NCBI RefSeq assembly: GCF_013394385.1 | Contig: NZ_AP022834.1 | Location: forward strand, 1,488,001 to 1,552,000 | Reading direction: 5' to 3' | DNA: 64,000 nucleotides | DNA from: Kocuria sp. TGY1127_2 | GTDB lineage: Bacteria > Actinomycetota > Actinomycetes > Actinomycetales > Micrococcaceae | Shown here: in pieces, positions 22,270 through 33,826 of the stretch | How positions within the stretch are numbered: the first letter of the stretch is position 1 | Layout of the letters: every line of letters starts with the position of its first letter | The notes under the pieces: generated by a model | What the model saw: only the letters and a program-made list of their open reading frames with translations | Database searches by the model: none | What the model was told of the DNA's origin: nothing | Translations under genes and position numbers: made by a program

Positions 22270-22374
22270 AGGGTTTCTCCATGAGGCGAACGATGGTGCA
22301 ATGCGGTCGGTGAAAAGTCACGAGGTTGATTCACAAGCACGCGCGAACCTCCCCCAGATCATCCTCCATACTAG

Positions 22375-22711
22375 GTCATGTCTCCTTTATTGACGTGGCC
22401 AAGTCAGGACCGCGCTGAGGCCGACTGCCGCACGATAGGTGACCGCGAGTTTGTCATAGCGTGTTGCCAACTGCCACGGACCGAAGTGTTCCCTGGGCAG
22501 ATCGCGCCAGGCAACGCCGGCGCGGTAGCGATAGATCATTCCTTCGACGATCCGGCGATTGTTTTCGAATGGTCGAGCTCTCCTACCGGTATTGGAAGGT
22601 AGGAGTGGTTCGATTCGCTCCCACAGCTGATCAGTGAATACTTGATGTCGTTGCTGTGTAGTCACTCATACAGCGTCCCAGTGGTGAACTCGTCATTAAA
22701 GGAGACACGCC
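22375..22711 (-). mobile_element. Left IS copy: 337-bp internally deleted IS5-family derivative
   Basis: It keeps both terminal repeats (GTCATGTCTCCTTTATTG outside, GGCGTGTCTCCTTTAATG inside) but lacks 634 bp of the full-length right copy. By eye it differs from that copy at only about three positions over the shared sequence, so both are close relatives. Its small ORF (22387-22665, 92 codons) joins the transposase N-terminus up to GPWQ to the last 28 residues beginning LATRYDKLA. The catalytic Asp residues are lost, so it can move only in trans. Confidence 0.9.
22387..22665 (-). pseudogene. Internally deleted IS5-family transposase
   Basis: The 92-codon frame fuses the N-terminal 65 residues of ORF A (MTTQQRHQVFTDQLWERIEP to GPWQ) to the C-terminal end of ORF B. 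Because ORF A and ORF B use different frames in the intact element, the 634-bp deletion restores one continuous frame. It retains the helix-turn-helix-like DUF4096 part but no DDE core. Confidence 0.88.
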
Positions 22712-22724
22712 CTAGTCTCGCGGT

Positions 22725-23709
22725 ATGACTGCCATCGATGATCCTCTGACCTCATTCGCCCACGGCGGAGGGTGGGCCTGCAAGATCCCGCCGGGCGAAC
22801 TCGAGGAAGCCGTCAAGGGACTCACCGGCCAGGCCGGAGCGGATGTTCTCGTAGGCCTCGACGACGGTGACGACGCCTCTGCCGTCCGCGTCCGCGAAGA
22901 CCTGGCCGTGCTCTCGACTGCGGACTTCTCCCCCGGTTGTCGACGAGGCCTACGACTGGGGTCGGATCACGGCAGCGAACGCGATCTCGGACATCTACGC
23001 CATGGGTGGGACGCCGATCACGTCGATCAACCCGGTCGGCTGGCCGCGTGAGAAACTGCCGATGGAGCTGCTCACCGAGGTGCTGCGCGGCGGACTCGAT
23101 GTCGCAGCCCTCGCGAACTGTCCCGTCGCCGGCGGGCATTCGATCGACGATCCGGAGCCCAAGTACGGGATGGCCGTGACCGGCATCGCCCATCCAGATG
23201 AGCTCATGCGCAATGACGCCGCCGAGGTGGGTCTGCCCTTGACGTTGACCAAACCCATCGGCGTGGGGATCCTCAACAACCGCCACAAGCAGACCGGGGA
23301 ATACTTCGACGAAGCTGTGGCAACGATGACCGAACTCAACCGCGATGCGGCACAGGCAGCCGTGGCCGCTGGCGTGCGTGCGGTCACCGATGTCACCGGC
23401 TTCGGGCTGCTCGGGCATCTGTTCAAGATGTTCCGTGCCTCCGGAGTTGGTGCGGTCATCGATGGGACTGCGGTGCCCCGCCTCGGCGGAGTCGATGAGT
23501 CGATCGCTGCCGGCTACGTCTCCGGCGGAACCCGTCGCAATCTCGACTGGGTGCGCCCCAGTCTCACCGCCGAGGACTTAGTCAGCGAAGACGACTTGTT
23601 CCTGCTCGCCGATGCCCAGACCCCGGGCGGACTTCTCGTCGTCGGCGAGCTGCCCGGTCACCCGGTCATCGGGGAGATCGTCGTCGGCTCGGGTGTGCAC
23701 GTGCGGTGA
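22725..23709 (+). pseudogene. selD: Selenophosphate synthase, frameshifted and missing the catalytic Cys/Sec
   Basis: SelD makes selenophosphate from selenide and ATP. The N-terminal part (FAHGGGWACKIPPGELEE, DVLVGLDDGDDASAV, LAVLSTADF) is in one frame and the rest (VVDEAYDWG, AMGGTPITSINPVGWPREK, GHSIDDPEPKYG, DVTGFGLLGHLFKM, QTPGGLLVVGE) in another; the break lies at about 22925-22935 and fits a net loss of two bases. The residue equivalent to E. coli Cys17, Cys or selenocysteine in active enzymes, is Trp encoded by TGG at 22773-22775, one base from TGA and TGC. No selA, selB or selC is seen. The start codon is nine bases from the left IS, which has removed the native promoter. Homology is certain; inactivity is inferred. 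Confidence 0.88.
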
Positions 23710-23963
23710 CGCCGACATCGACTTCACAACGTTCATCTCGAACAAGAGCAAGCACATCACAGAGCGTATGGTCGCGAGTCGGATTCCCGAGTTCAACCGG
23801 AAAAGCGTCGGTGACCCCGGCCCAGCGTTGGGGACGAATCGACAGCCGCGGGATACTGCCGGATTGCGACCCGCAGCGCAATGCAGCACTCCCAAAACGG
23901 TCGTGGACTATTGACTGTTCCGGCTTTAGGGTCGAGACATCCTCTTAGGAAGCGAGCCATTGA
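23710..23963. other. Intergenic remnant and promoter region of the lyase operon
   Basis: These 254 bases follow the selD stop. Short frames exist on both strands (for example 23666-23881 minus), but none shows a recognisable family or ribosome site. The last 65 bases hold the promoter-like motif of the downstream operon. Confidence 0.5.
23900..23932 (+). promoter_or_regulatory. Promoter with shared cargo motif (lyase operon)
   Basis: GTCGTGGACT (23900-23909) contains -35 TGGACT, followed by a 17-base spacer and -10 TAGGGT (23927-23932). The same arrangement precedes the aldolase gene and, with an 18-base spacer, the cyclase gene. It ends 31 bases before the lyase start codon. Confidence 0.6.
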
Positions 23964-24830
23964 ATGTTGAATTCACTGCGAGATCTCATCGCATCCGGTA
24001 CGCCGCTCATCGCTCCGTCCATCTATGACGGGATTTCCGCAGCGGCGCTCCGCGATGCCGGCTTCTCTGCCGCATACATCGGAAGTTATGCGACGGGAGC
24101 GACGAAATACGCCGTTCCCGATATCGGTTACATCGGAGTCGAAGACATGGCAGACCAAGTACGACGGTTGTCGCCCATCGCAGACGTTCCCCTGATCGTC
24201 GACGGGGAGGGCGGTTGGGGCAACCCGCTGCACGTCGCACGTTCCATCAAACTCCTGGAGCAAGCCGGGGCCGCCGCCATTCACATCGAAGACCATGATT
24301 TCGGCAAGCACATCGTCGAGAGCCCGCGGATCATTCCGACGGAGCAGGCGGTGGACAAGATCAAAGCGGCTGTGGACGCTCGAGATTCAGAGGACCTGAT
24401 GATCATCGCGAGAACAGACGCCGCCGGCACCGAAGGCCCGCAAGCAGCATTCGACCGCCTGATGGCGTACCAGGAAGCTGGGGCAGACGGCCTGTTCTAT
24501 GCGGGAGTCCCCGATTCCGCGATCCAACTTCGCCTCAAGGACGAGAGTCGGGTACCGATCTTCGGCGTCGACTTCCCGGGACAGAGCGCCGCCGAACTTG
24601 GGAAACTGACGGATGTGATCCTCTACTACGGCCTCACACACCTCGTCGTGCGCAATGCGCTCAGCCGCGCCTTTTCCGTCCTCTCGGCGGAAGGTTCCGC
24701 CGTCAGTCTCGAAGAAGAACTCGGCGGCATTCCCGGAATCATCGGATTCGATGACTTTCTCGGAGTCCCCCAGGCTCGCGAAAAGGCCGAACAGTTCGGG
24801 CTCATCGATGAAAAGGACACGAACGAATGA
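23964..24830 (+). CDS. Isocitrate lyase/PEP mutase superfamily protein
   Basis: This 288-residue alpha/beta-barrel protein matches the superfamily of 2-methylisocitrate lyase, 2,3-dimethylmalate lyase, oxaloacetate hydrolase and PEP mutase: LIAPSIYDGISAAALRDAGF at the start, IVDGEGGWGNP at the metal site (usual form DADTGYGN), AAAIHIEDHDFGKH, and MIIARTDAAGTEGPQAAFDR. The Lys-Arg/Lys-Cys-Gly-His loop of true isocitrate and methylisocitrate lyases is absent (HDFGKHIVES instead), so classical lyase chemistry by that Cys is unlikely. A C-C or C-P bond reaction on a 2-oxo acid or malate-like compound remains possible. AGGAAG precedes the ATG, and its stop overlaps the next gene (ATGA). Confidence 0.82.
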   Translation: MLNSLRDLIASGTPLIAPSIYDGISAAALRDAGFSAAYIGSYATGATKYAVPDIGYIGVEDMADQVRRLSPIADVPLIVDGEGGWGNPLHVARSIKLLEQAGAAAIHIEDHDFGKHIVESPRIIPTEQAVDKIKAAVDARDSEDLMIIARTDAAGTEGPQAAFDRLMAYQEAGADGLFYAGVPDSAIQLRLKDESRVPIFGVDFPGQSAAELGKLTDVILYYGLTHLVVRNALSRAFSVLSAEGSAVSLEEELGGIPGIIGFDDFLGVPQAREKAEQFGLIDEKDTNE

Positions 24831-26140
24831 CGAACTCCGATACGACCCTGTTTCACGGAGCGCGACTGATCGTCGGCGATGGCTCCGATGCCATCGATGA
24901 TGCTGGATTGCTCGTCACGAACGGCATCATCGTCGCATCTGGTCGGATCGCTGACATCTCGGCTCCGACAAGCGCGCGCCGCGTCGACCTCACCGGCAGG
25001 ACAATCATGCCGACGATCATCAATCCGCACATCCACGCCGGATATCTCAAGGGCGCTGCGACAGATGCGGATAACTTCACACGCGAAAATGTGCTCGATC
25101 ACCTTCGCCGATTCATCTACTACGGCGTAAGCGTCGTGCAATCGCTGGGAACGGATCGTGACGGCGTGGAGATCGCGATCCGCGATGAACAGCGATCGGG
25201 CAGGCTCCACGATCCCGAGTTGGCTCTGCTGCTTTCTGCATCGAACGGTATCGCGGCCCCCACCCCCGGTGATGGCAACGGGGGCGCTTTCTTCGCCCCC
25301 GATGCGATTCTCGAGGCAGACACCCCTGACCAAGGGCGACAACGCGTACACGAGGTGCTCGCAGATAACCCGGACGCAATCAAGTTCTGGGTCGATGACC
25401 GAAACGGCACCAAGAACAAGTTCGGCCCGGATGTCTATGGAGCGATCATCGATGAAGCGCACACAGTCGGCAAGAGGGCAATCGCTCACATCTACGAACT
25501 CGACGACGCCAAGGGCGTCATCCGGGCCGGTGCCGATGGCACAGCGCACATGGTTCGCGCTCCCGGCCCGGACGACGAGCTGCTCACTCTTATGCGAGAC
25601 AACGATGCGTTTGTCTTCACCTCGATGAGCATCCAGAAGATGCTGGTTGACGGCAGCGGATGGCTTGACGATCCGTCCCTGGCCGAGACTGTCGACGAGG
25701 CGTCGCGACAGACCATCCGAGCGATGATCGAGAGCGCCGACCCGGAAGTGGTCACATCCATGAAAGATGGCTACCGGATTCTCGAGACCGGCCTGCGCAG
25801 ATACTCAGATGCCGGGGTGACCGTGCTTCTGTCCGGTGACACCGGCGTCTTAGCGCAATTTCCGGGATTCACAGAGCACCGAGAGCTTGAGGCGATGGTG
25901 CATGCCGGGATGCCCGCGGCCGCAGCCATCCAGTCAGCAACGCTGCTTCCCGCACAGATGCTTGGTCTCACCGATCGAGGTTCACTTGACGTCGGCAATC
26001 GGGCCGATTTCCTCGTGCTCAACGCAGACCCGCTCAAAGATATTTCGAACACTCGCAATATCGCAGCCGTCTACATCGACGGTTCACGCGTCGATCGCGA
26101 CAATCTCAGACACACAATCGCAAAGAGAGATCATGCCTAA
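24827..26140 (+). CDS. Amidohydrolase-superfamily metal-dependent hydrolase
   Basis: The 437-residue protein has the amidohydrolase layout: a small beta-sandwich from the N-terminus (LIVGDGSDAIDDAGLLVTNG), the HxH metal motif in PTIINPHIHAG, a likely bridging Lys in DAIKFWVDDRNG, a metal His in AIAHIYELDD, a later His in DGTAHMVRAPG, the catalytic Asp in VLLSGDTGV, and the closing block LGLTDRGSLDVGNRADFLVLNADPLKD. The last block is typical of imidazolonepropionase-like enzymes that open lactam, imide or enamide rings. The substrate is unknown. It overlaps the lyase gene by four bases and the SDR gene by eight, so the three are translationally coupled. Confidence 0.88.
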   Translation: MTNSDTTLFHGARLIVGDGSDAIDDAGLLVTNGIIVASGRIADISAPTSARRVDLTGRTIMPTIINPHIHAGYLKGAATDADNFTRENVLDHLRRFIYYGVSVVQSLGTDRDGVEIAIRDEQRSGRLHDPELALLLSASNGIAAPTPGDGNGGAFFAPDAILEADTPDQGRQRVHEVLADNPDAIKFWVDDRNGTKNKFGPDVYGAIIDEAHTVGKRAIAHIYELDDAKGVIRAGADGTAHMVRAPGPDDELLTLMRDNDAFVFTSMSIQKMLVDGSGWLDDPSLAETVDEASRQTIRAMIESADPEVVTSMKDGYRILETGLRRYSDAGVTVLLSGDTGVLAQFPGFTEHRELEAMVHAGMPAAAAIQSATLLPAQMLGLTDRGSLDVGNRADFLVLNADPLKDISNTRNIAAVYIDGSRVDRDNLRHTIAKRDHA

Positions 26141-26966
26141 ACCAGTACTTGTCATCATCGGGTCGGGCGGAATGGGCGCTGCGATCGCGCGTCGGGTCGG
26201 AGCCGGTCGCACACTCGTGCTCGCTGACTTCGATGAAACACGTCTCGAGGCTTTCGCCGCGTCGATGCGAGACGACGGGTATGCCGCCGTCGAACAGAAG
26301 GTCGACGTCAGCGATCGAGCGTCAGTCGCTGCGCTTGCCGATACCGCTGCAAGCCTGGGCCCGGTCATCGCAGTCGCACATACCGCTGGTGTGTCTCCGC
26401 AGCAGGCCCCGGTCACAGCCATCCTGCACGTGGATCTGCTGGGCACTGCGATCGTACTCGAGGAATTCCAACATGTCATTGCAGAAGGGGGTGCCGGCGT
26501 TGTGATCTCCAGCATGGGAGGACACATGGGAAGTAGTCCTCAAGACCTCGAGCAGGCCTTGGCGACTACGCCGACGGATGAGCTGCTTGAGCTTCCCTTC
26601 CTCTCTGCCGAGAATCTCACTGATGCCGGAGCGGCATATTCGCTCGCCAAACGAGCGAACCGGCTGCGCGTCACGGCCGCCGCACCATCGTGGGGCGATC
26701 GAGGGGCACGGATCAATTCGATCAGCCCCGGGATCATCTCCACACCGATGGGTCAGTTGGAGCTTTCGGGAGCCGACGGGGGCGGGATGCGTGCCATGCT
26801 CGACGCTTCTGCAACCAAACGCCTCGGCACACCAGAGGACATCGCGAACGCGGCGGACTTCCTCCTCGATCCGCGTTCCAGCTTCATCACCGGTACCGAC
26901 CTTCTCGTCGACGGTGGTGTCATCGCCGCACTGAGGTCCGGTCGACTCTCCATTCCTGGAGTGTAG
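26133..26966 (+). CDS. Short-chain dehydrogenase/reductase
   Basis: The 277-residue SDR has the dinucleotide loop GSGGMGAAIA, DFDE after the second strand (favouring NAD over NADP), DVSD, a HTAGVSP block in place of NNAG, the active-site YSLAK, and INSISPGIISTPMG with the C-terminal FITGTDLLVDGG. Serine, tyrosine and lysine of the catalytic set are present (VVISSMGG, YSLAK). It begins inside the end of the amidohydrolase gene (ATGCCTAA). It probably interconverts an alcohol and a ketone or aldehyde in the same pathway. Confidence 0.88.
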   Translation: MPKPVLVIIGSGGMGAAIARRVGAGRTLVLADFDETRLEAFAASMRDDGYAAVEQKVDVSDRASVAALADTAASLGPVIAVAHTAGVSPQQAPVTAILHVDLLGTAIVLEEFQHVIAEGGAGVVISSMGGHMGSSPQDLEQALATTPTDELLELPFLSAENLTDAGAAYSLAKRANRLRVTAAAPSWGDRGARINSISPGIISTPMGQLELSGADGGGMRAMLDASATKRLGTPEDIANAADFLLDPRSSFITGTDLLVDGGVIAALRSGRLSIPGV

Positions 26967-26988
26967 GCGGAAGGCTCTTCGTGAAACT

Positions 26989-27046
26989 GAACTGCTCCCC
27001 AGCAGTTGGTCGGATCAAACAGACACCAACTTACGGGGAGCAGTTC
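26989..27046. repeat. 58-bp nested inverted repeat (IS-end-like relic or terminator)
   Basis: GAACTGCTCCCC (26989-27000) and GGGGAGCAGTTC (27035-27046) are a perfect 12-bp inverted repeat. GTTGGT and ACCAAC pair inside it. The arms resemble ends of IS3-family elements that read GAACTGCTCCCC, here left with almost nothing between them. It sits between the convergent SDR and cyclase genes and may also act as a two-way terminator. Confidence 0.6.
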
Positions 27047-27086
27047 TACGCGTTCTCCATCGCTTCCGCAGCCACCGACGTTTCGG

Positions 27087-28049
27087 TCAGAACAGTGCCA
27101 CGGGGTTAGTTGCGCTCGATGTGACTCCGACCATGCGCCAAGGCAGCATGGCGAAGAAGAATTCCGAACGGCCCAGATCGGCGCATTTGGCTGCGAGTTC
27201 GGTGAGTTCCATATTGTCGATGAGCCACAGTCCGAGCGCAACGAGACCGATTTCGTGTATCGGGCGGATAAGGTCCAGGGTGTCGAAGCCCGAAGGTTGC
27301 ACGTCCTGAATCCCATCGCTTCCGATAGCCGCGATGTCACGTTCACGCAGGTAGGGCAGACATGCTGCGCTCAGACCGGCTTGGAGCTGCAAATAGGGGT
27401 TGTCTGGCCCGAAGGCGGGGCCTTCGGCCAACACCCGAGCAACGTGGCCTGTGTGCACGATGAGCACGTCTCCCGAACCGACGGTGACGCCCTGACGTTC
27501 TTCGGCGGCAAGGAGCTCCTCCGGGGTGACGGCGTGTCCGGCCTCCAGCCACGGCACTTTGTGGAGTCCTGCGATGTCAAGGAGCACGCCACGAGCGACG
27601 ATGCCGTCGCTGGCATGATGGACTGAGAGCTTTCCGGCTCCCCCGATCGAGGTGGTGTTCGCTGCGACGTCGAACCCGTTGTAGTTCTTCCCGTCCCAGG
27701 AATAGTGAGCCAAACCGTCCAGGTGGGTGTTTGAGCCGTGAGCGGCGATGCCGACGTATTCCGTCACGCCGTCGAAGCGAACGCTGTCGCCCAGATGGTG
27801 GCTCGCTTCGCCGATCTGCATGAACCGCTGCGTCGATGTCAGTCCCGTCTTCAGCGGGTCAGGGTCAGCCGCATCGATATTGCGTGAGAGTGAAATGATC
27901 TCGCCGGATTCGATCAGCGAAGCTGCCCGTCTGCGGGTCTCCGGAGTAATCAGGTTGAGGGTTCCCAGACGGTCATCGTCTCCCCACCGTCCCCAGTTGG
28001 AGAGAGTGTCGAAGTAACCGATCGCCTCATCGGCGGTAGGTAGTGTCAT
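27087..28049 (-). CDS. Cyclase-family (kynurenine formamidase-like) metal hydrolase
   Basis: This 320-residue protein belongs to the cyclase/KynB family, whose members include arylformamidase, isatin hydrolase and polyketide cyclase-like enzymes. The metal motif HGSNTHLDGLAH corresponds to HxGTHxDxPxH. GVLLDIAGL, GDVLIVHTGH and the late AIGSDGIQDV and HEIGLVALGLWLIDN blocks match the longer cyclase subgroup. These enzymes open cyclic amides or anhydrides or act on formamides with Mn or Zn. It is transcribed away from the LysR gene and has its own copy of the cargo promoter motif. The substrate is not known. Confidence 0.86.
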   Translation of the reverse strand: MTLPTADEAIGYFDTLSNWGRWGDDDRLGTLNLITPETRRRAASLIESGEIISLSRNIDAADPDPLKTGLTSTQRFMQIGEASHHLGDSVRFDGVTEYVGIAAHGSNTHLDGLAHYSWDGKNYNGFDVAANTTSIGGAGKLSVHHASDGIVARGVLLDIAGLHKVPWLEAGHAVTPEELLAAEERQGVTVGSGDVLIVHTGHVARVLAEGPAFGPDNPYLQLQAGLSAACLPYLRERDIAAIGSDGIQDVQPSGFDTLDLIRPIHEIGLVALGLWLIDNMELTELAAKCADLGRSEFFFAMLPWRMVGVTSSATNPVALF

Positions 28050-28122
28050 CAGATCTGTTCCTTTCCCATCAGCGTTGACCGAAACGGGATCTCGTCGGAA
28101 GCGCAGTCATCATCGGGTTTCG

Positions 28123-28156
28123 AGTCTACGAGTCGCGATCAACAGCAGTCCATGAC
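28123..28156 (-). promoter_or_regulatory. Promoter with shared cargo motif (cyclase gene)
   Basis: On the minus strand GTCATGGACT (28156-28147) holds -35 TGGACT, an 18-base spacer, and -10 TAGACT (28128-28123). It lies in the interval between the divergent cyclase and LysR genes, the usual place for a LysR operator. Confidence 0.58.
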
Positions 28157-28199
28157 CGAGTTGGGTACCGATGGTTGCAAGCCAGGACATAATAGAGGT

Positions 28200-29096
28200 A
28201 TGGAGCTTCGACATCTGCATCATTTTCTGGCCGTTGCTGACGAGCTGAATTTCTCCAGAGCAGCGGCGCGGGTCAATATCTCCGCCTCCCCGTTGAGCAG
28301 GAGCATTCAGCAACTGGAGCGCGAGGTAGGAGGTCCGCTCTTCATCCGGGGAACTCGTAAGGTTGAAATCACACCTCTCGGACGCGCGTTGCAGCCCCGA
28401 GCGCTCAAGGTTGTCGAGGAAATGGACGCGCTGACTCGCGACATGAGACGACAGGCGGTTGACCTGGTGGAACTGTCCATCGGGATGACATCGGTGAGAG
28501 CAGAATTGGCGAGAGCGATCATCGACGACGTCGTCCTGCAGACTGAGCCCAACGCGGCCGTTCGCCTGGAGCTGTTTGACTCGTTCGCGCAGATGGACCT
28601 GATTGTCGATGGCAGCCTCTCGCTAGGCTTGGTGAATCGGCGTCGAAGCGATCACCGGCTTCACTACTTACCCATCATGATCGAGACTCCGGCATTCGCC
28701 TTACCAGACACACCACACAACTCAGCCCTGACCGAAGTACTGCCCGAGGACATTGTGGGTCTGCGACTGCTTCTCCAGCCCGGGTTCGGCCCAATAGAAT
28801 CACCGCTGGTCCCCTATGTGGAAGCAGCGGGCGAGGTTGTTCAGGTCAACGCCGCAGTCGTCGGGGGGCTGGCAGCCGTGATCGCCGAAGGCGACGCGTG
28901 TTGTCTCACTATCGCGAACGAGGACGCTCCCTGGCACAGACATGTCATTGGTGACGGCGTCGTCATCCGACCGATGCCACCCGAGTTACAGGCCACCACC
29001 TACCTTTGCTGGAGAGCCGACCGCGATAATGACGATGATCTGGGTGCAATACTCCGTCTCTTACATGAGCGCTTTCCGCAACCACTTCAACCGTGA
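28200..29096 (+). CDS. LysR-family transcriptional regulator
   Basis: This 298-residue protein starts with the LysR winged helix (MELRHLHHFLAVADELNFSRAAARVNISASPLSRSIQQLE, shown in part by RHLHHFLAVADELNFSRAA) and has a two-lobed periplasmic-binding-like effector domain after about residue 90. I chose the ATG at 28200 because the helix begins directly and AGAGG precedes it; an in-frame ATG at 28152 would add 16 unrelated residues and overlap the promoter of the divergent gene. Its likely targets are the three cargo promoters sharing GTCRTGGACT. Confidence 0.93.
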   Translation: MELRHLHHFLAVADELNFSRAAARVNISASPLSRSIQQLEREVGGPLFIRGTRKVEITPLGRALQPRALKVVEEMDALTRDMRRQAVDLVELSIGMTSVRAELARAIIDDVVLQTEPNAAVRLELFDSFAQMDLIVDGSLSLGLVNRRRSDHRLHYLPIMIETPAFALPDTPHNSALTEVLPEDIVGLRLLLQPGFGPIESPLVPYVEAAGEVVQVNAAVVGGLAAVIAEGDACCLTIANEDAPWHRHVIGDGVVIRPMPPELQATTYLCWRADRDNDDDLGAILRLLHERFPQPLQP

Positions 29097-29146
29097 CGAA
29101 GCGAGGCGTATTCGGACCTGAAATGCAACAACAAGAGTCCCGAATA

Positions 29147-29179
29147 GTCGTGGACTCTCCACCCGGGAGTTCGTAGCGT
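29147..29179 (+). promoter_or_regulatory. Promoter with shared cargo motif (aldolase gene)
   Basis: GTCGTGGACT (29147-29156), a 17-base spacer, and TAGCGT (29174-29179) repeat the layout seen before the lyase operon. It ends 35 bases before the chosen aldolase start. Confidence 0.6.
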
Positions 29180-29214
29180 GAATGACCTACCGTCAAACAC
29201 GAAAGGGATCTGCC

Positions 29215-30036
29215 ATGAGAATTGCGCCCCGAAACATCCGCACAAAGCTCGAAGCCGGCCAGCGAGCCTTCGGCTCCACGATTCAGTTCCCTTACCCCGA
29301 GATCGTCGAGGTCGTGGGTTATACCGGCTTCGACTATGCCTGGCTCGATGCAGAGCACGGCACGATGGACCTGTCACAGATCGCGGAGCTCATCCGTGCC
29401 GCCGATGCATCCAGAGTCGACAGCATCGTTCGAGTTCCAGACCACGACACTGCATTCATCGGCCGAGTCCTCGATGCCGGAGCCACCGGCATCATGGTCC
29501 CCCACGTCGACTCGGTTGCCGTGGCCGAGTCCATCGTCGGGGCGACAAAGTTCTCACCCCTCGGCACCCGCGGAGCGTGCCCATCAGTACGTTGGCTCGG
29601 GCACCTCACTGAAGACTGGAGCACTGACTATCGACGCGCCGATGAGGATACCCTCGTATTCGGTCTGATCGAGGACATCAAAGGCGTCGAAGACGTCGAA
29701 GCGATCGCGCAGGTCCCCGGTCTGGACGGGCTGGTCTTCGGGCCATTCGACCTCGCCATGGCGTTGGGTCGAGAGGGAGAGATCGACCACCCCGACGTCA
29801 TCGCCATGCACGACAGAGTCGTCAACGCCACCAAATCTGCCGGCATCCACTACGTAGCGGCAGCGGCTGCCTGGGAACCCGGCGGCAATCAAGGCGTCAT
29901 CGACTCGAACGCCCGCGTCGTGAACGTGACCGGTGACCGCGGACTACTGGTCATGGCCCACCGCCACTCCCTTGCCGATATACAGAAAGACCTCGCCGAA
30001 AACGGTCCGGCTCCGGACTATGTCCCTGCCATCTGA
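29215..30036 (+). CDS. HpcH/HpaI-family aldolase
   Basis: This 273-residue protein belongs to the class II pyruvate aldolases related to HpaI and 2-keto-3-deoxy-L-rhamnonate aldolase. Visible family blocks are GYTGFDYAWLDAEHGTMDL (catalytic His/Asp region), IVRVPDHDTAFIGRVLDAGATGIMVPHVDS, the arginine block LGTRGACPS, and GLIEDIKGVEDVEAIAQVPGLDGLVFGPFDLA with the metal-binding Glu and Asp. They cleave 2-keto-4-hydroxy acids to pyruvate plus an aldehyde. The ATG at 29215 follows AAAGGGA and lies downstream of the predicted -10 box; an in-frame ATG at 29182 would overlap the promoter. Confidence 0.88.
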   Translation: MRIAPRNIRTKLEAGQRAFGSTIQFPYPEIVEVVGYTGFDYAWLDAEHGTMDLSQIAELIRAADASRVDSIVRVPDHDTAFIGRVLDAGATGIMVPHVDSVAVAESIVGATKFSPLGTRGACPSVRWLGHLTEDWSTDYRRADEDTLVFGLIEDIKGVEDVEAIAQVPGLDGLVFGPFDLAMALGREGEIDHPDVIAMHDRVVNATKSAGIHYVAAAAAWEPGGNQGVIDSNARVVNVTGDRGLLVMAHRHSLADIQKDLAENGPAPDYVPAI

Positions 30037-30732
30037 AAAGCAACACCTCGCAAAGATGCGGCCGGAAGAAGTGAATTTGGGCGAAGCTCTTCTCACTGCG
30101 TTTGAGAGGGCCGCTGCGCGGGTGACCTGAGTCGGGCATCTCCGAGCGCCCCGCTATCTCTCTGTTCTTCCAGCCGCTGCTCGCGGCACTCAGCGTGTTT
30201 GGCTGCATCTGCGAATCGGCCCACTTCCATTTCGTGATTGAACCGACTCACTGCTCATTGCCGAGAGTGCGGTGAGGATGATCATCATCGCGCTTCTGGC
30301 CTTTGTACACGGCTGAACGCGGTGTTGACCCGGCGCGAATTCTCTTATCTGCCGGTGACTACTGCGCAATATGGACCCCGTGCGATACAGGGGAGCTATC
30401 GCAGCTGCCGACCCCCACGTGAGCAATCAAATCTACGAATCCCCACTCCGATCGAGGCGCACGCGCCAGTCGTCGTTTGCTCATAGCTGCCAGGCAGCCG
30501 ATGGCACTCGAACGCATAGCCAATCAACGCACTCATCGTTTTGTCCCGTGGCGACGATTCCGACATCGACAGCATGGGGCAGAGACCACCCGTCCAGCTG
30601 GACACATCAATGCTCTCGACAACGAGCACAAAGACAATCAAGCCTCTACCATCGAGATCTTGACGTCGACTTCTGCGGCCGTGCTGCTGGATGAAGTCAG
30701 GCGCGAAGATCATCACTGACGGAGCAGAACGG
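30037..30732. other. Gene-poor cargo stretch
   Basis: About 700 bases with only short frames on both strands (longest near 30396-30716 minus and 30477-30719 plus). None has a recognisable domain, good ribosome site or actinobacterial codon pattern. It looks like decayed sequence between the aldolase gene and the exporter fragment. Confidence 0.5.
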
Positions 30733-31322
30733 TCATTTCAATACCAGGGACCGGGCCCGATTCGGGGCCCAAACCAGATTTGAGGTCGCCCCGATGCATC
30801 GCCGGATCATGGATGACGGTCTGCCCTGTGGAGAAGTCTCGCCAGCCGAAATGTTCGCGTCCGATGCTCCCGCAGCCGCCGGTGTGACGGGAACCGGTCG
30901 AGCGAGATTCTCAGCCATGGCCGAGAGTTCGCGCAGATCCACAGCCGCCCCGGGCCCTGCACTGTCGGTGCCTGCCCAGGTCGCAGTACGTCGGATCTGA
31001 CGAGTCAGCTCTGCCATGGTGGTGTCGGTGGCCCGATGGCGAAGATGCCGACGGGGCTCCAGGCGAAGGGCGCACCGGCAATGCGTCGTCGGCTAGCGAG
31101 GTCGTCGATGACACGGACCGGACCGAACAGCTTCGCATCGTCGTGCCCCGTTGTCCTCTCGACGCGATCAGCGAGATCGCTGAGCAGCTCGGTGAGGGCA
31201 TCGTAGAACCCGCTGGTCAGATAGGCAGCAGTGTCGCGGGTGCGGATGGGCATAACGACGGCGGACACGACGACCGCAATGACTGCAACGAGGAGGGTCT
31301 CTGCGATGCGTTGGCCCAGCAG
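30733..31322 (-). pseudogene. FUSC/aromatic-acid-exporter-like fragment, truncated by the right IS
   Basis: Reading from the right IS edge on the minus strand gives LLGQRIAETLLVAVIAVVVS, then AVVMPIRTRDTAAYLTSGFYDALTEL (shown in part), the membrane-to-cytosol transition seen in FUSC-type exporters, followed by a charged helix. The 5' part is missing because the IS begins at 31327. A frame change at about 31030-31060 moves the sequence into the frame ending at 30733 (MAELTRQIRRTATW). Both defects indicate a dead gene. The family call rests on the topology and the RTRD junction and is moderate. Confidence 0.6.
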
Positions 31323-31372
31323 CTAGGGCGTGTCTCCTTTAATGACGAGTTCACCACTGGGACGCTGTATGA

Positions 31373-31789
31373 GTGACTACACAGCAACGACATCAAGTAT
31401 TCACTGATCAGCTGTGGGAGCGAATCGAACCACTCCTACCTTCCAATACCGGTAGGAGAGCTCGACCATTCGAGAACAATCGCCGGATCGTCGAAGGAAT
31501 GATTTATCGCTACCGCGCCGGCGTTGCCTGGCGCGATCTGCCCAGGGAACACTTCGGTCCGTGGCAGACGGTATGGAAACGACATCGGCGCTACGCTGCT
31601 GACGGCACGTGGGATCGAGTGCTGGCTCAGATCTTGGCTGACGCTGACGCAGCTGGCGATATCGATTGGAACATCTCCGTCGATGGCACGATCAATCGCG
31701 CTCACCAACACGGCACGAACACCCGTCGTCCTGACCAGGACACAGGCGGCAACATCGAATTAGAAGAATCTGCCCGAGAAGGTTTGTGA
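31373..31789 (+). CDS. IS5-family transposase, ORF A
   Basis: This 138-residue N-terminal part of the transposase has the DUF4096/HTH region (MTTQQRHQVFTDQLWERIEP, YRYRAGVAWRDLPREHFGPW) and the first catalytic Asp (NISVDGTINRAHQHG). It stops at TGA 31787-31789. The continuing protein sequence (EPAGHGIGRSRGGLTTKIHH) resumes at 31788 in the frame one base ahead, so full transposase would need a +1 (or -2) shift near GGTTTGTGA, or this copy carries a frameshift. Confidence 0.88.
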   Translation: MTTQQRHQVFTDQLWERIEPLLPSNTGRRARPFENNRRIVEGMIYRYRAGVAWRDLPREHFGPWQTVWKRHRRYAADGTWDRVLAQILADADAAGDIDWNISVDGTINRAHQHGTNTRRPDQDTGGNIELEESAREGL

Positions 31790-32285
31790 ACCTGCCGGCC
31801 ACGGGATCGGACGTTCACGTGGCGGACTGACGACGAAGATCCATCATCCCGTTGACGGTCGGGGTCGACCATTGGCGATCGTGGTCACTGACGGCCAACG
31901 CCACGACGGAGTCATACTGCCTCAAGTGCTCGCTGATATTCGAGTCCCACGGATCGGCGCTGGCCGTGCACGCACACGCCCGGACTCGGTTCTCGGCGAC
32001 CGGGCCTATGGGCCCAGAGCCAACCGTGAGCACCTGCACAACCGCGGCATCCAGGCGGTGATCCTTGAGAAGAAGGACCAGGTCGCATCCCGGAAGAAGC
32101 GTGGCCACAGTGGCGGGAAACCTCCGGCATTTGACTCCATAGGGTACAAAAACAGGAGCGACGTCGAGCGCTCCTTCGCCTACGTCAAACAGTGGAGAGG
32201 GTTGGCAACACGCTATGACAAACTCGCGGTCACCAATCGTGCGGCAGTCGGCCTCAGCGCGGTCCTGACTTGGCCACGTCAATAA
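31788..32285 (+). CDS. IS5-family transposase, ORF B
   Basis: The frame is homologous to the transposase C-terminal half from 31788 on (EPAGHGIGRSRGG, TTKIHHPVDGRGRPLAIVVTDG). The first possible internal start is the TTG at 31872. It carries the second Asp (VLGDRAYGPRAN) and the Glu (SDVERSFAYVKQWRGLATRY). Without a frameshift from ORF A it would be made, if at all, as a separate protein lacking the first catalytic Asp. Confidence 0.85.
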   Translation, partial: EPAGHGIGRSRGGLTTKIHHPVDGRGRPLAIVVTDGQRHDGVILPQVLADIRVPRIGAGRARTRPDSVLGDRAYGPRANREHLHNRGIQAVILEKKDQVASRKKRGHSGGKPPAFDSIGYKNRSDVERSFAYVKQWRGLATRYDKLAVTNRAAVGLSAVLTWPRQ

Positions 32286-33826
32286 AGGAGACATGACCTA
32301 GTTCCCCGGGCCGGATCGAGGCGATAGGTCAGGATGACGCAAGAGACACTCAAAGCAACGGATGAAGCTATGGCGAACGTGCCGGAGCCGATCCGGATTC
32401 GGGAAACAGGCCAGGACGAGATCATCCTGGCTACGGTATCGATCCACGAGGCCCCCATTCCCACGCACATCACGAGACAATCTGAAAGAACCGGAACCAT
32501 GGGAAGGATCGTCGCCAGGATCCCGCACAAGGTGGCTGCAGGGACTACAGGTGCCACGACGAGATTCGCGACCACTGTGTATAAGCTCCAGTACCCGGAC
32601 AGCCACACGAGGACGGGCGCGCACCACAAAGTAGCGACAATCGTCATGGCCGTTAGATCTGCAATCAGGCGAGGCAAGACAGCCGAAAACACACGGGACA
32701 ACGGCGGACCTTGGACGAGAATTCCTGCGGTTGCGAGAACGGAGAGCACAAATCCGACATCCGTGGCCATCTGATGATCGGCACACAACAGCCCCACGAT
32801 GCTGACCCACAATGCTGAACTGGCCGTGCCCGCTCTGCCGAGGATCATCGCGGTCCCTCCGATGATTCCCATCGACGCGGCCCGAAGAATCGAGGGGTCC
32901 GGCCCCACGAGGTTCACGTATCCCCACACGGCGCCGATACCTGCAAGGATCGTGAGATTCCGTGGACACTTGGTCCAGCGGACCATATGAACCCCCATCA
33001 TGAAAACGAGGCCTACATTCGAGCCGGATACGGCCGTGAGATGAGTCAGCCCTGCGGTTCTGAGGGCCTGCCGAGACCCCTCCGAAAGATCCGCATCGTC
33101 CCCGTAGGACATACCCGTGGTCAGGGCGGCGACATCCGAAGGCAATAGCCTCTCGGTACGTTCCGACATTGCCTTCCGCAACCGACCAGCCCACCCGTTG
33201 GGTGAATGGCCCTCAGGAGGGTAGCCATGTATCAGCCCATCCTCGGCAAGAATGCGGAGCTGGAATCGCCCATCGTCCGCCATGTCTATACGAGCGATCA
33301 CGCCCTGCGCGGACCGCGAGGCTCTGGAACTACGGTTTTCCTTCTCAGAATTCCGATCCGTCACGTTTCTGAACACCGTGACCTTTTCCGATCCCTGTAC
33401 CAATCCGTTCCGGCCTTCTATCTTCACCAGGTTTGCCTCGCTCACCCGGCTCTTCGCGAAGTTCGTCTCCACGACACGTTCTTGGGAAACCGGGACGATC
33501 ACGCAACGGACCACGAGAGCGCGTTCGGCAGCTTGTCTCAAGATTCGGCTCATGTCGTGAGACGGAGGAACAGCGAACCAGAGGACCGAGCCTGCGGCCA
33601 GACAGACGCTGCCAGTTCCGGCCAGAATCGCAGATACCCGGCCTACGCGCCGTCGGCATCTTCTCTCGCGCACGTGGGCGCCCGCTCCGGAGACCAAGCC
33701 GGCACACAAGACCGCCACGCTGCACGTGGCGTGGACCGGATAATGGCTTCCCGCCCAGAGGGCGGTTGCCCATGCGGCAATGGCTGCTGGAAGCAACCGA
33801 AGGTCCAGATGCGAGTCGCTCTTCAC
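32279..33826 (-). CDS. comEC: ComEC/Rec2 family competence membrane protein, 3' end altered by transposon
   Basis: ComEC forms the inner-membrane channel for single-stranded DNA in natural transformation. The 515-residue protein has an N-terminal soluble OB-like region (about 90-200) and the Competence domain (ALTTGMSYGDDADLSEGSRQALRTAGLTHLTAVSGSNVGL in part; then about eight membrane segments). No C-terminal metallo-beta-lactamase domain is present. The last six codons (RSCLLY) and stop come from the IS end. Reading over a collapsed CTAG restores a native tail SMEDDLGEVRACL ending at 22331, 61 bases before holA, so only about 13 residues were lost. The GTG start overlaps the comEA stop. Confidence 0.9.
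   Translation of the reverse strand: MKSDSHLDLRLLPAAIAAWATALWAGSHYPVHATCSVAVLCAGLVSGAGAHVRERRCRRRVGRVSAILAGTGSVCLAAGSVLWFAVPPSHDMSRILRQAAERALVVRCVIVPVSQERVVETNFAKSRVSEANLVKIEGRNGLVQGSEKVTVFRNVTDRNSEKENRSSRASRSAQGVIARIDMADDGRFQLRILAEDGLIHGYPPEGHSPNGWAGRLRKAMSERTERLLPSDVAALTTGMSYGDDADLSEGSRQALRTAGLTHLTAVSGSNVGLVFMMGVHMVRWTKCPRNLTILAGIGAVWGYVNLVGPDPSILRAASMGIIGGTAMILGRAGTASSALWVSIVGLLCADHQMATDVGFVLSVLATAGILVQGPPLSRVFSAVLPRLIADLTAMTIVATLWCAPVLVWLSGYWSLYTVVANLVVAPVVPAATLCGILATILPMVPVLSDCLVMCVGMGASWIDTVARMISSWPVSRIRIGSGTFAIASSVALSVSCVILTYRLDPARGTRSCLLY

Follow-up and report, generated by a model that had tools for sequence, protein, structure and literature searches.

Tn6097 of Paracoccus, treated in part of PMC3281130, is a composite transposon formed by two copies of the insertion sequence (IS) ISPfe2, and TnC5ppSal of Pseudomonas sp. 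C5pp, described in sections of PMC5141477, is a catabolic transposon whose IS21-family repeats are inverted. The unit described here, from Kocuria sp. TGY1127_2, is like both in that IS copies bracket passenger genes, and like TnC5ppSal in that putative catabolic genes lie between inverted copies. It differs from both in its IS5-family ends and in that one end copy is internally deleted; moreover, Tn6097 was captured by transposition, whereas the Kocuria unit is known from sequence alone. Its ISs are likened, by profiles and published descriptions, to the IS427-type members of the IS5 family, with which they share a length of about 1 kb, inverted ends, a CTAG target with a 4-bp duplication, two overlapping transposase frames and a DDE-type domain. 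According to part of PMC9241763, the M. shottsii element ISMysh01 is flanked by 4-base direct repeats of CTAG and has IS427-type relatives with two CDSs; unlike the IS considered here, ISMysh01 has a single ORF and is assigned to the IS5 group. The IS427 group is characterized, in the relevant passages of PMC3281130, by two overlapping ORFs and a conserved frameshift motif, but most of the Paracoccus members tabulated there differ from the present IS in being 832–865 bp long and in making 2-bp duplications. Among the titles and beginnings of abstracts listed for composite transposons with the IS5 family and CTAG, IS427, Rothia composite transposons, Brevibacterium with IS5 or selenophosphate synthetase, and Microbacterium sp. 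No. 7, none describes this element; in the paper listed for composite transposons with the IS5 family and CTAG, the CTAG belongs to a primer. As a composite transposon it is of a known kind and the event was an ordinary one, of which it is a good example; the understanding of composite transposons is not changed by it.

The window, i.e. the whole stretch of 64,000 nucleotides that was analysed, contains two inverted IS copies bracketing positions 22371–32301, and the unit thus delimited is 9,923 bp long without target duplications. The right copy (31323–32301, plus strand) is full length, with 979 bp including its CTAG edges. The left copy (22371–22715, minus strand; 345 bp including its CTAG edges) corresponds to bases 1–245 and 880–979 of the right copy, or equally to 1–244 and 879–979, with 3 mismatches in 345 positions; 634 bp of the interior are missing and both ends are kept. 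Accordingly, two pairs of inverted arms were detected, 22471–22715/31323–31567 (245 nt) and 22370–22471/32201–32302 (102 nt), each 99% identical. The first 21 bases inside the CTAGs form terminal inverted repeats that are alike at 18 positions. CTAG stands at all four IS edges: outer left (22371–22374), inner left (22712–22715), inner right (31323–31326) and outer right (32298–32301). The tetranucleotide is rare in the 64-kb window, with 36 occurrences against 227 expected from base composition alone, so that four exact CTAG edges are not a matter of chance. The initial annotation had proposed two inverted copies with CTAG at four edges, the left one a deleted derivative that retains both ends, and the arms, the coordinates and the alignment of the two copies all agree with this. 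No third copy was found in the host genome (2,997,021 bases; two contigs searched).

The transposase of the right copy is encoded in two parts on the plus strand. The first frame (31373–31789, 138 aa) matches NF033580, the IS5-family profile, at 3.2e-33 (115.4 bits; cut-off 110) and PF13340 at 2e-25. The second frame, open at 31764–32285 after a TAG at 31761–31763, matches the DDE-type domain PF01609 over 31872–32282 (8.9e-14; 52.1 bits, cut-off 23). In the window a +1 (or –2) shift relates one frame to the other. The two parts lie in different, overlapping open frames both here and in nine of ten relatives compared, a set that includes two copies from one genome (L103 and L120); the exception, L106, has a stop that interrupts its first frame. 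The IS therefore has the look of an element that depends on frameshifting. The TAG of the right copy falls where all ten relatives have a sense codon, and it narrows the frame overlap in the window copy only, while neither frame has a stop in the 11 bases that follow it, be it in the window or in any of the relatives. If the frameshift precedes the TAG, the right copy would be dead; if the shift takes place within the 11 following bases, it would be unaffected. The initial annotation had named the right copy as a possible supplier of transposase; on these grounds, the transposase of this copy may be nonfunctional.

In a sample of 396 genomes of the order, which included the own genome and from which two candidates per genome were scored, end-to-end relatives of the IS were limited to four copies in three genomes, all of one genus (here g8), at 76–78% identity. 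CTAG edges both ends of three of these copies and the left end only of the fourth. At such identities, none of them is the immediate source. Within the host's own genus, the IS has a partial counterpart in G029 (68% identity over positions 75–979), and the Rothia amarae plasmid NZ_CP062958 matches it at the same coordinates as does contig C3 of G029; the other congeneric matches amount to about 150 bp at 72% in G022 and one of 27 bp.

Of the congeners, G022 is the nearest found; its holA gene is 95% identical to that of the host, and its flanking DNA 93.6% and 91.8% identical. In this genome the two flanks join through a single CTAG, that is, the site is empty; the filled site has two, the additional one being what a 4-bp target duplication calls for, and the outer CTAGs are thereby identified as that duplication. 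Such a comparison is needed because the related lone ISs also have CTAG edges, and the four CTAGs would fit equally well with two separate IS insertions that flank genes already resident at the locus. It is the empty site that tells the composite unit from two such insertions: the outer flanks are joined directly in G022, and separate insertions are thereby refuted for the host lineage, unless G022 underwent an exact excision. Some room for resident genes is given by the neighbourhood itself, which was not fixed across 30 loci of the genus, but comEC adjoins holA also in the close congeners G005, G031, G012 and G007, and the cargo was seen in no congener, which leaves separate insertions very unlikely. 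By DNA search the cargo was found in none of 34 congeners (35 genomes including the host, three of them under 90% complete); matches of 57–63 bp only occurred, in three genomes, and the host genome itself has two short matches elsewhere.

These findings bear also on the age of the unit. A target site can in principle be restored when 4-bp direct repeats recombine, and so the unit might be ancestral, with G022 and the other relatives having lost it by precise excision that left one CTAG. Independent losses across the genus would then be needed, and the few differences between the IS copies (3/345), set against the 6–8% by which the flanks differ from G022, fit a more recent arrival; an ancestral unit is accordingly considered highly improbable. 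An acquisition after the split from G022 is what the sequences point to. Still less probable, indeed hardly credible, is that the unit was brought in as part of a longer acquired segment, or through homologous recombination, with the ISs merely marking its edges. The mosaic nature of the cargo, with a selD from g8 and a gene cluster whose relatives are found in Microbacteriaceae and Frankia, would suit such an origin, but on either side the host sequence stays colinear with that of G022 as far as the CTAG, for 6.4 and 7.7 kb, and when a circle and a resident IS recombine by one crossover, the resulting copies are direct rather than inverted. The reading preferred here is therefore that of a composite transposon with IS5-family ends that moved as one block, to which a probability of about 0.9 is assigned. 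The initial annotation had described a discrete composite unit of roughly 9.9 kb and had proposed to look for an empty CTAG site in a relative; such a site is present in G022, and the converse picture, in which all related strains carry the cargo and none has an empty site, is contradicted by G022 and by the absence of the cargo from its congeners.

The same annotation had taken the host synteny outside the unit to be intact. Gene order is indeed preserved, yet the unit has entered the extreme 3' end of comEC, where this gene adjoins holA. The comEC frame of G022 crosses the CTAG and stops 18 residues past a shared ‘GT’, whereas in the window gene (32279–33826, minus strand) the last 18 codons, as present in G022, are replaced by six that derive from the target site and the IS end. 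The Competence domain of ComEC (residues 240–499) lies upstream of the insertion. In the 30 loci of the genus that were compared, own locus included, comEC and holA lie within about 110 bp of each other or overlap in five, the aligned part of comEC ends 0.2–1.3 kb from holA in 22, and three, the own locus L004 among them, show no comEC in the alignments; these distances are upper bounds, as they come from local alignments. In the congener G018 (L038:2430–11735) the two genes are about 9.3 kb apart with other genes between them, by eye a P-type ATPase-like protein, an ABC transporter pair and regulators. The comEC–holA junction may have taken insertions repeatedly.

The initial annotation had also described a different gene style inside the unit, and this view is not upheld. 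GC is 0.59–0.63 inside the unit and 0.56–0.65 in the rest of the window, and the codon fit to seven neighbouring host genes ranges from 0.032 to 0.164 for the six cluster genes and from 0.041 to 0.175 for the host genes, so that only the LysR gene, at 0.032, falls just below the host minimum of 0.041. Composition was therefore rejected as evidence of foreignness for the six genes, whose GC and codon use are within the range of the host or fall slightly short of it; selD alone stands out, with a codon fit of 0.234 and a GC3 of 0.80. The foreign origin claimed for the cargo is nevertheless borne out in another way, by a selD nested among g8 sequences and by the distribution of the IS, and it is on phylogeny and distribution that it rests. 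Elsewhere in the host, the first 20 kb of the second contig (L122; 33 kb) that were searched are partly 81–84% identical to plasmids of Kocuria sp. TGY1120_3 and to an alcohol dehydrogenase gene carried by Streptomyces plasmids; neither match has a bearing on the unit.

Next to the left IS copy lies a selD pseudogene of g8 type (22716–23709, plus strand), recognized by a family match, by alignment with g8 loci and by its position in a tree. The genus g8 belongs to the same order as the host, and we take it to be perhaps Brevibacterium. The pseudogene has two lesions, a Trp codon where all 14 aligned g8 relatives have a conserved Cys, and a frameshifting deletion of 2 bases. It is 81–86% identical to the 14 g8 loci, and the homology begins at the inner CTAG, a position at which the g8 loci have CTAG once (L091, G241), TTAG in 12 cases and GTAG once; the edge thus looks like that of an IS inserted just upstream of a g8-type selD. 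In a tree of 27 sequences (19 from g8, seven others and the window; the 26 loci were picked by choice) the window sequence falls within a clade with eight g8 sequences at a support of 100/99, although the 19 g8 rows as a whole do not form one clade. When the whole cargo was searched as DNA at E 1e-20, 138 of the 396 genomes gave a match, mostly to the selD part. No other SelD scored above the family cut-off in the host or its 34 congeners, while weak matches below it occurred in every one of the genus's 35 genomes, as they did in each of the 14 control genomes. SelA was below the cut-off in the host, not found in G022, and above the cut-off in all three g8 genomes tested. With no other SelD and no SelA above the cut-off in the host, selD is a passenger without an evident partner. 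In the g8 genome G078 (L087:12514–16230), DNA beside selD resembles formate dehydrogenase genes of Tsukamurella and Arthrobacter plasmids, and selA lies within about 8 kb of selD; on this account a region of the donor type has the appearance of a selenium/formate dehydrogenase locus.

One part of the unit is thus traceable to g8, and the cluster is of wider and patchy distribution. The following course of events is proposed. In a donor related to g8, two IS5-family copies, oppositely oriented, would have entered CTAG sites, one of them immediately upstream of selD and the other inside another gene, so as to bracket the catabolic cluster. Transposase acting on the two outermost ends would then have moved the unit into the CTAG with which the 3' end of comEC is marked in the empty site, with duplication of these 4 bp on insertion. 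The interior of the left copy would have been lost either before or after arrival, leaving only its ends, and selD would have decayed, a gene of no obvious use to a host from which selA was not recovered. The value of the locus lies in what seems a clean cross-genus composite transposon, with the empty site in a sister genome and a passenger that points to the source genus, and in the sight of that passenger decaying in a host in which no selA was found.

The cluster itself comprises six genes, all of which keep open frames: a PEP mutase/isocitrate lyase-superfamily enzyme (23964–24830, plus strand; 288 aa), an amidohydrolase (24827–26140, plus; 437 aa), an SDR oxidoreductase (26133–26966, plus; 277 aa from an inferred start codon; NF005395 above cut-off, the searches having used the frame from 26118), a cyclase-family (PF04199) protein (27087–28049, minus; 320 aa), a LysR-type regulator (28152–29096, plus; 314 aa) and an HpcH/HpaI-type aldolase (29182–30036, plus; 284 aa, with a true start that is maybe downstream). 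The closest solved sequences are methylisocitrate lyases for the PEP mutase-type enzyme, imidazolonepropionase-named and other amidohydrolases for the amidohydrolase, one uncharacterized protein for the cyclase, and HpcH/HpaI aldolases for the aldolase. Such a gene content suggests hydrolysis and carbon–carbon cleavage of some acid or ring compound, and it is probably the cluster that selection maintains. A 22-nt inverted repeat (26989–27046; 86%, with 14 nt between the arms), possibly a terminator, lies where the SDR and cyclase genes converge. Beyond the cluster, an open frame on the minus strand (31008–31322) with a FUSC match below the cut-off (E 0.056) starts at the edge of the right IS, and its 5' end is thus cut off.

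Neither the amidohydrolase at E 1e-60 (four candidates scored per genome) nor the right inner flank DNA (two per genome) turned up in the 395 genomes of the order that were sampled besides the host. Whole cargo DNA, compared with all 396 (two per genome), led to no second genome that carries the unit, and the right-end frame was not found in the 33 other genomes of a chosen set of 34 (own, G022 and 32 of g8); with two or four candidates scored per genome, misses are possible. Ten plasmid records match the cargo DNA, and in nine the match covers no more than 7% of it. Orthologues aligned over most of their length were found for all six genes in Microbacteriaceae bacterium VKM Ac-2854, for five in a stretch of a Microbacterium plasmid and for two in the stretch of Frankia gtarii that was compared. 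The plasmid in question, plasmid A of Microbacterium sp. No. 7 (NZ_CP012698), encodes counterparts with amino acid identities of 73% for the PEP mutase-type enzyme, 73% for the amidohydrolase, 75% for the SDR, 69% for the cyclase and 54% for the LysR regulator. It differs from the Kocuria unit in gene order, in the presence of MFS transporter genes among and beside the cluster genes, and in that no match to the aldolase was obtained at E 1e-10, an aldolase/citrate lyase-family gene being annotated nearby. With the Kocuria unit, this rare catabolic cluster is met on a second type of mobile DNA. Tentatively, and as a combined proposal that is on balance unlikely, the cluster could represent an undescribed and patchy catabolic pathway travelling on mobile DNA, a linear plasmid in Microbacterium and a composite transposon here, while one end of the unit would be a transposase-less miniature mobilized in trans. 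Microbacterium sp. No. 7 grows on polypropylene glycol, and the paper reporting this makes no mention of the cluster (PMC4675938). An IS21-family element lies near the cluster genes on plasmid A.
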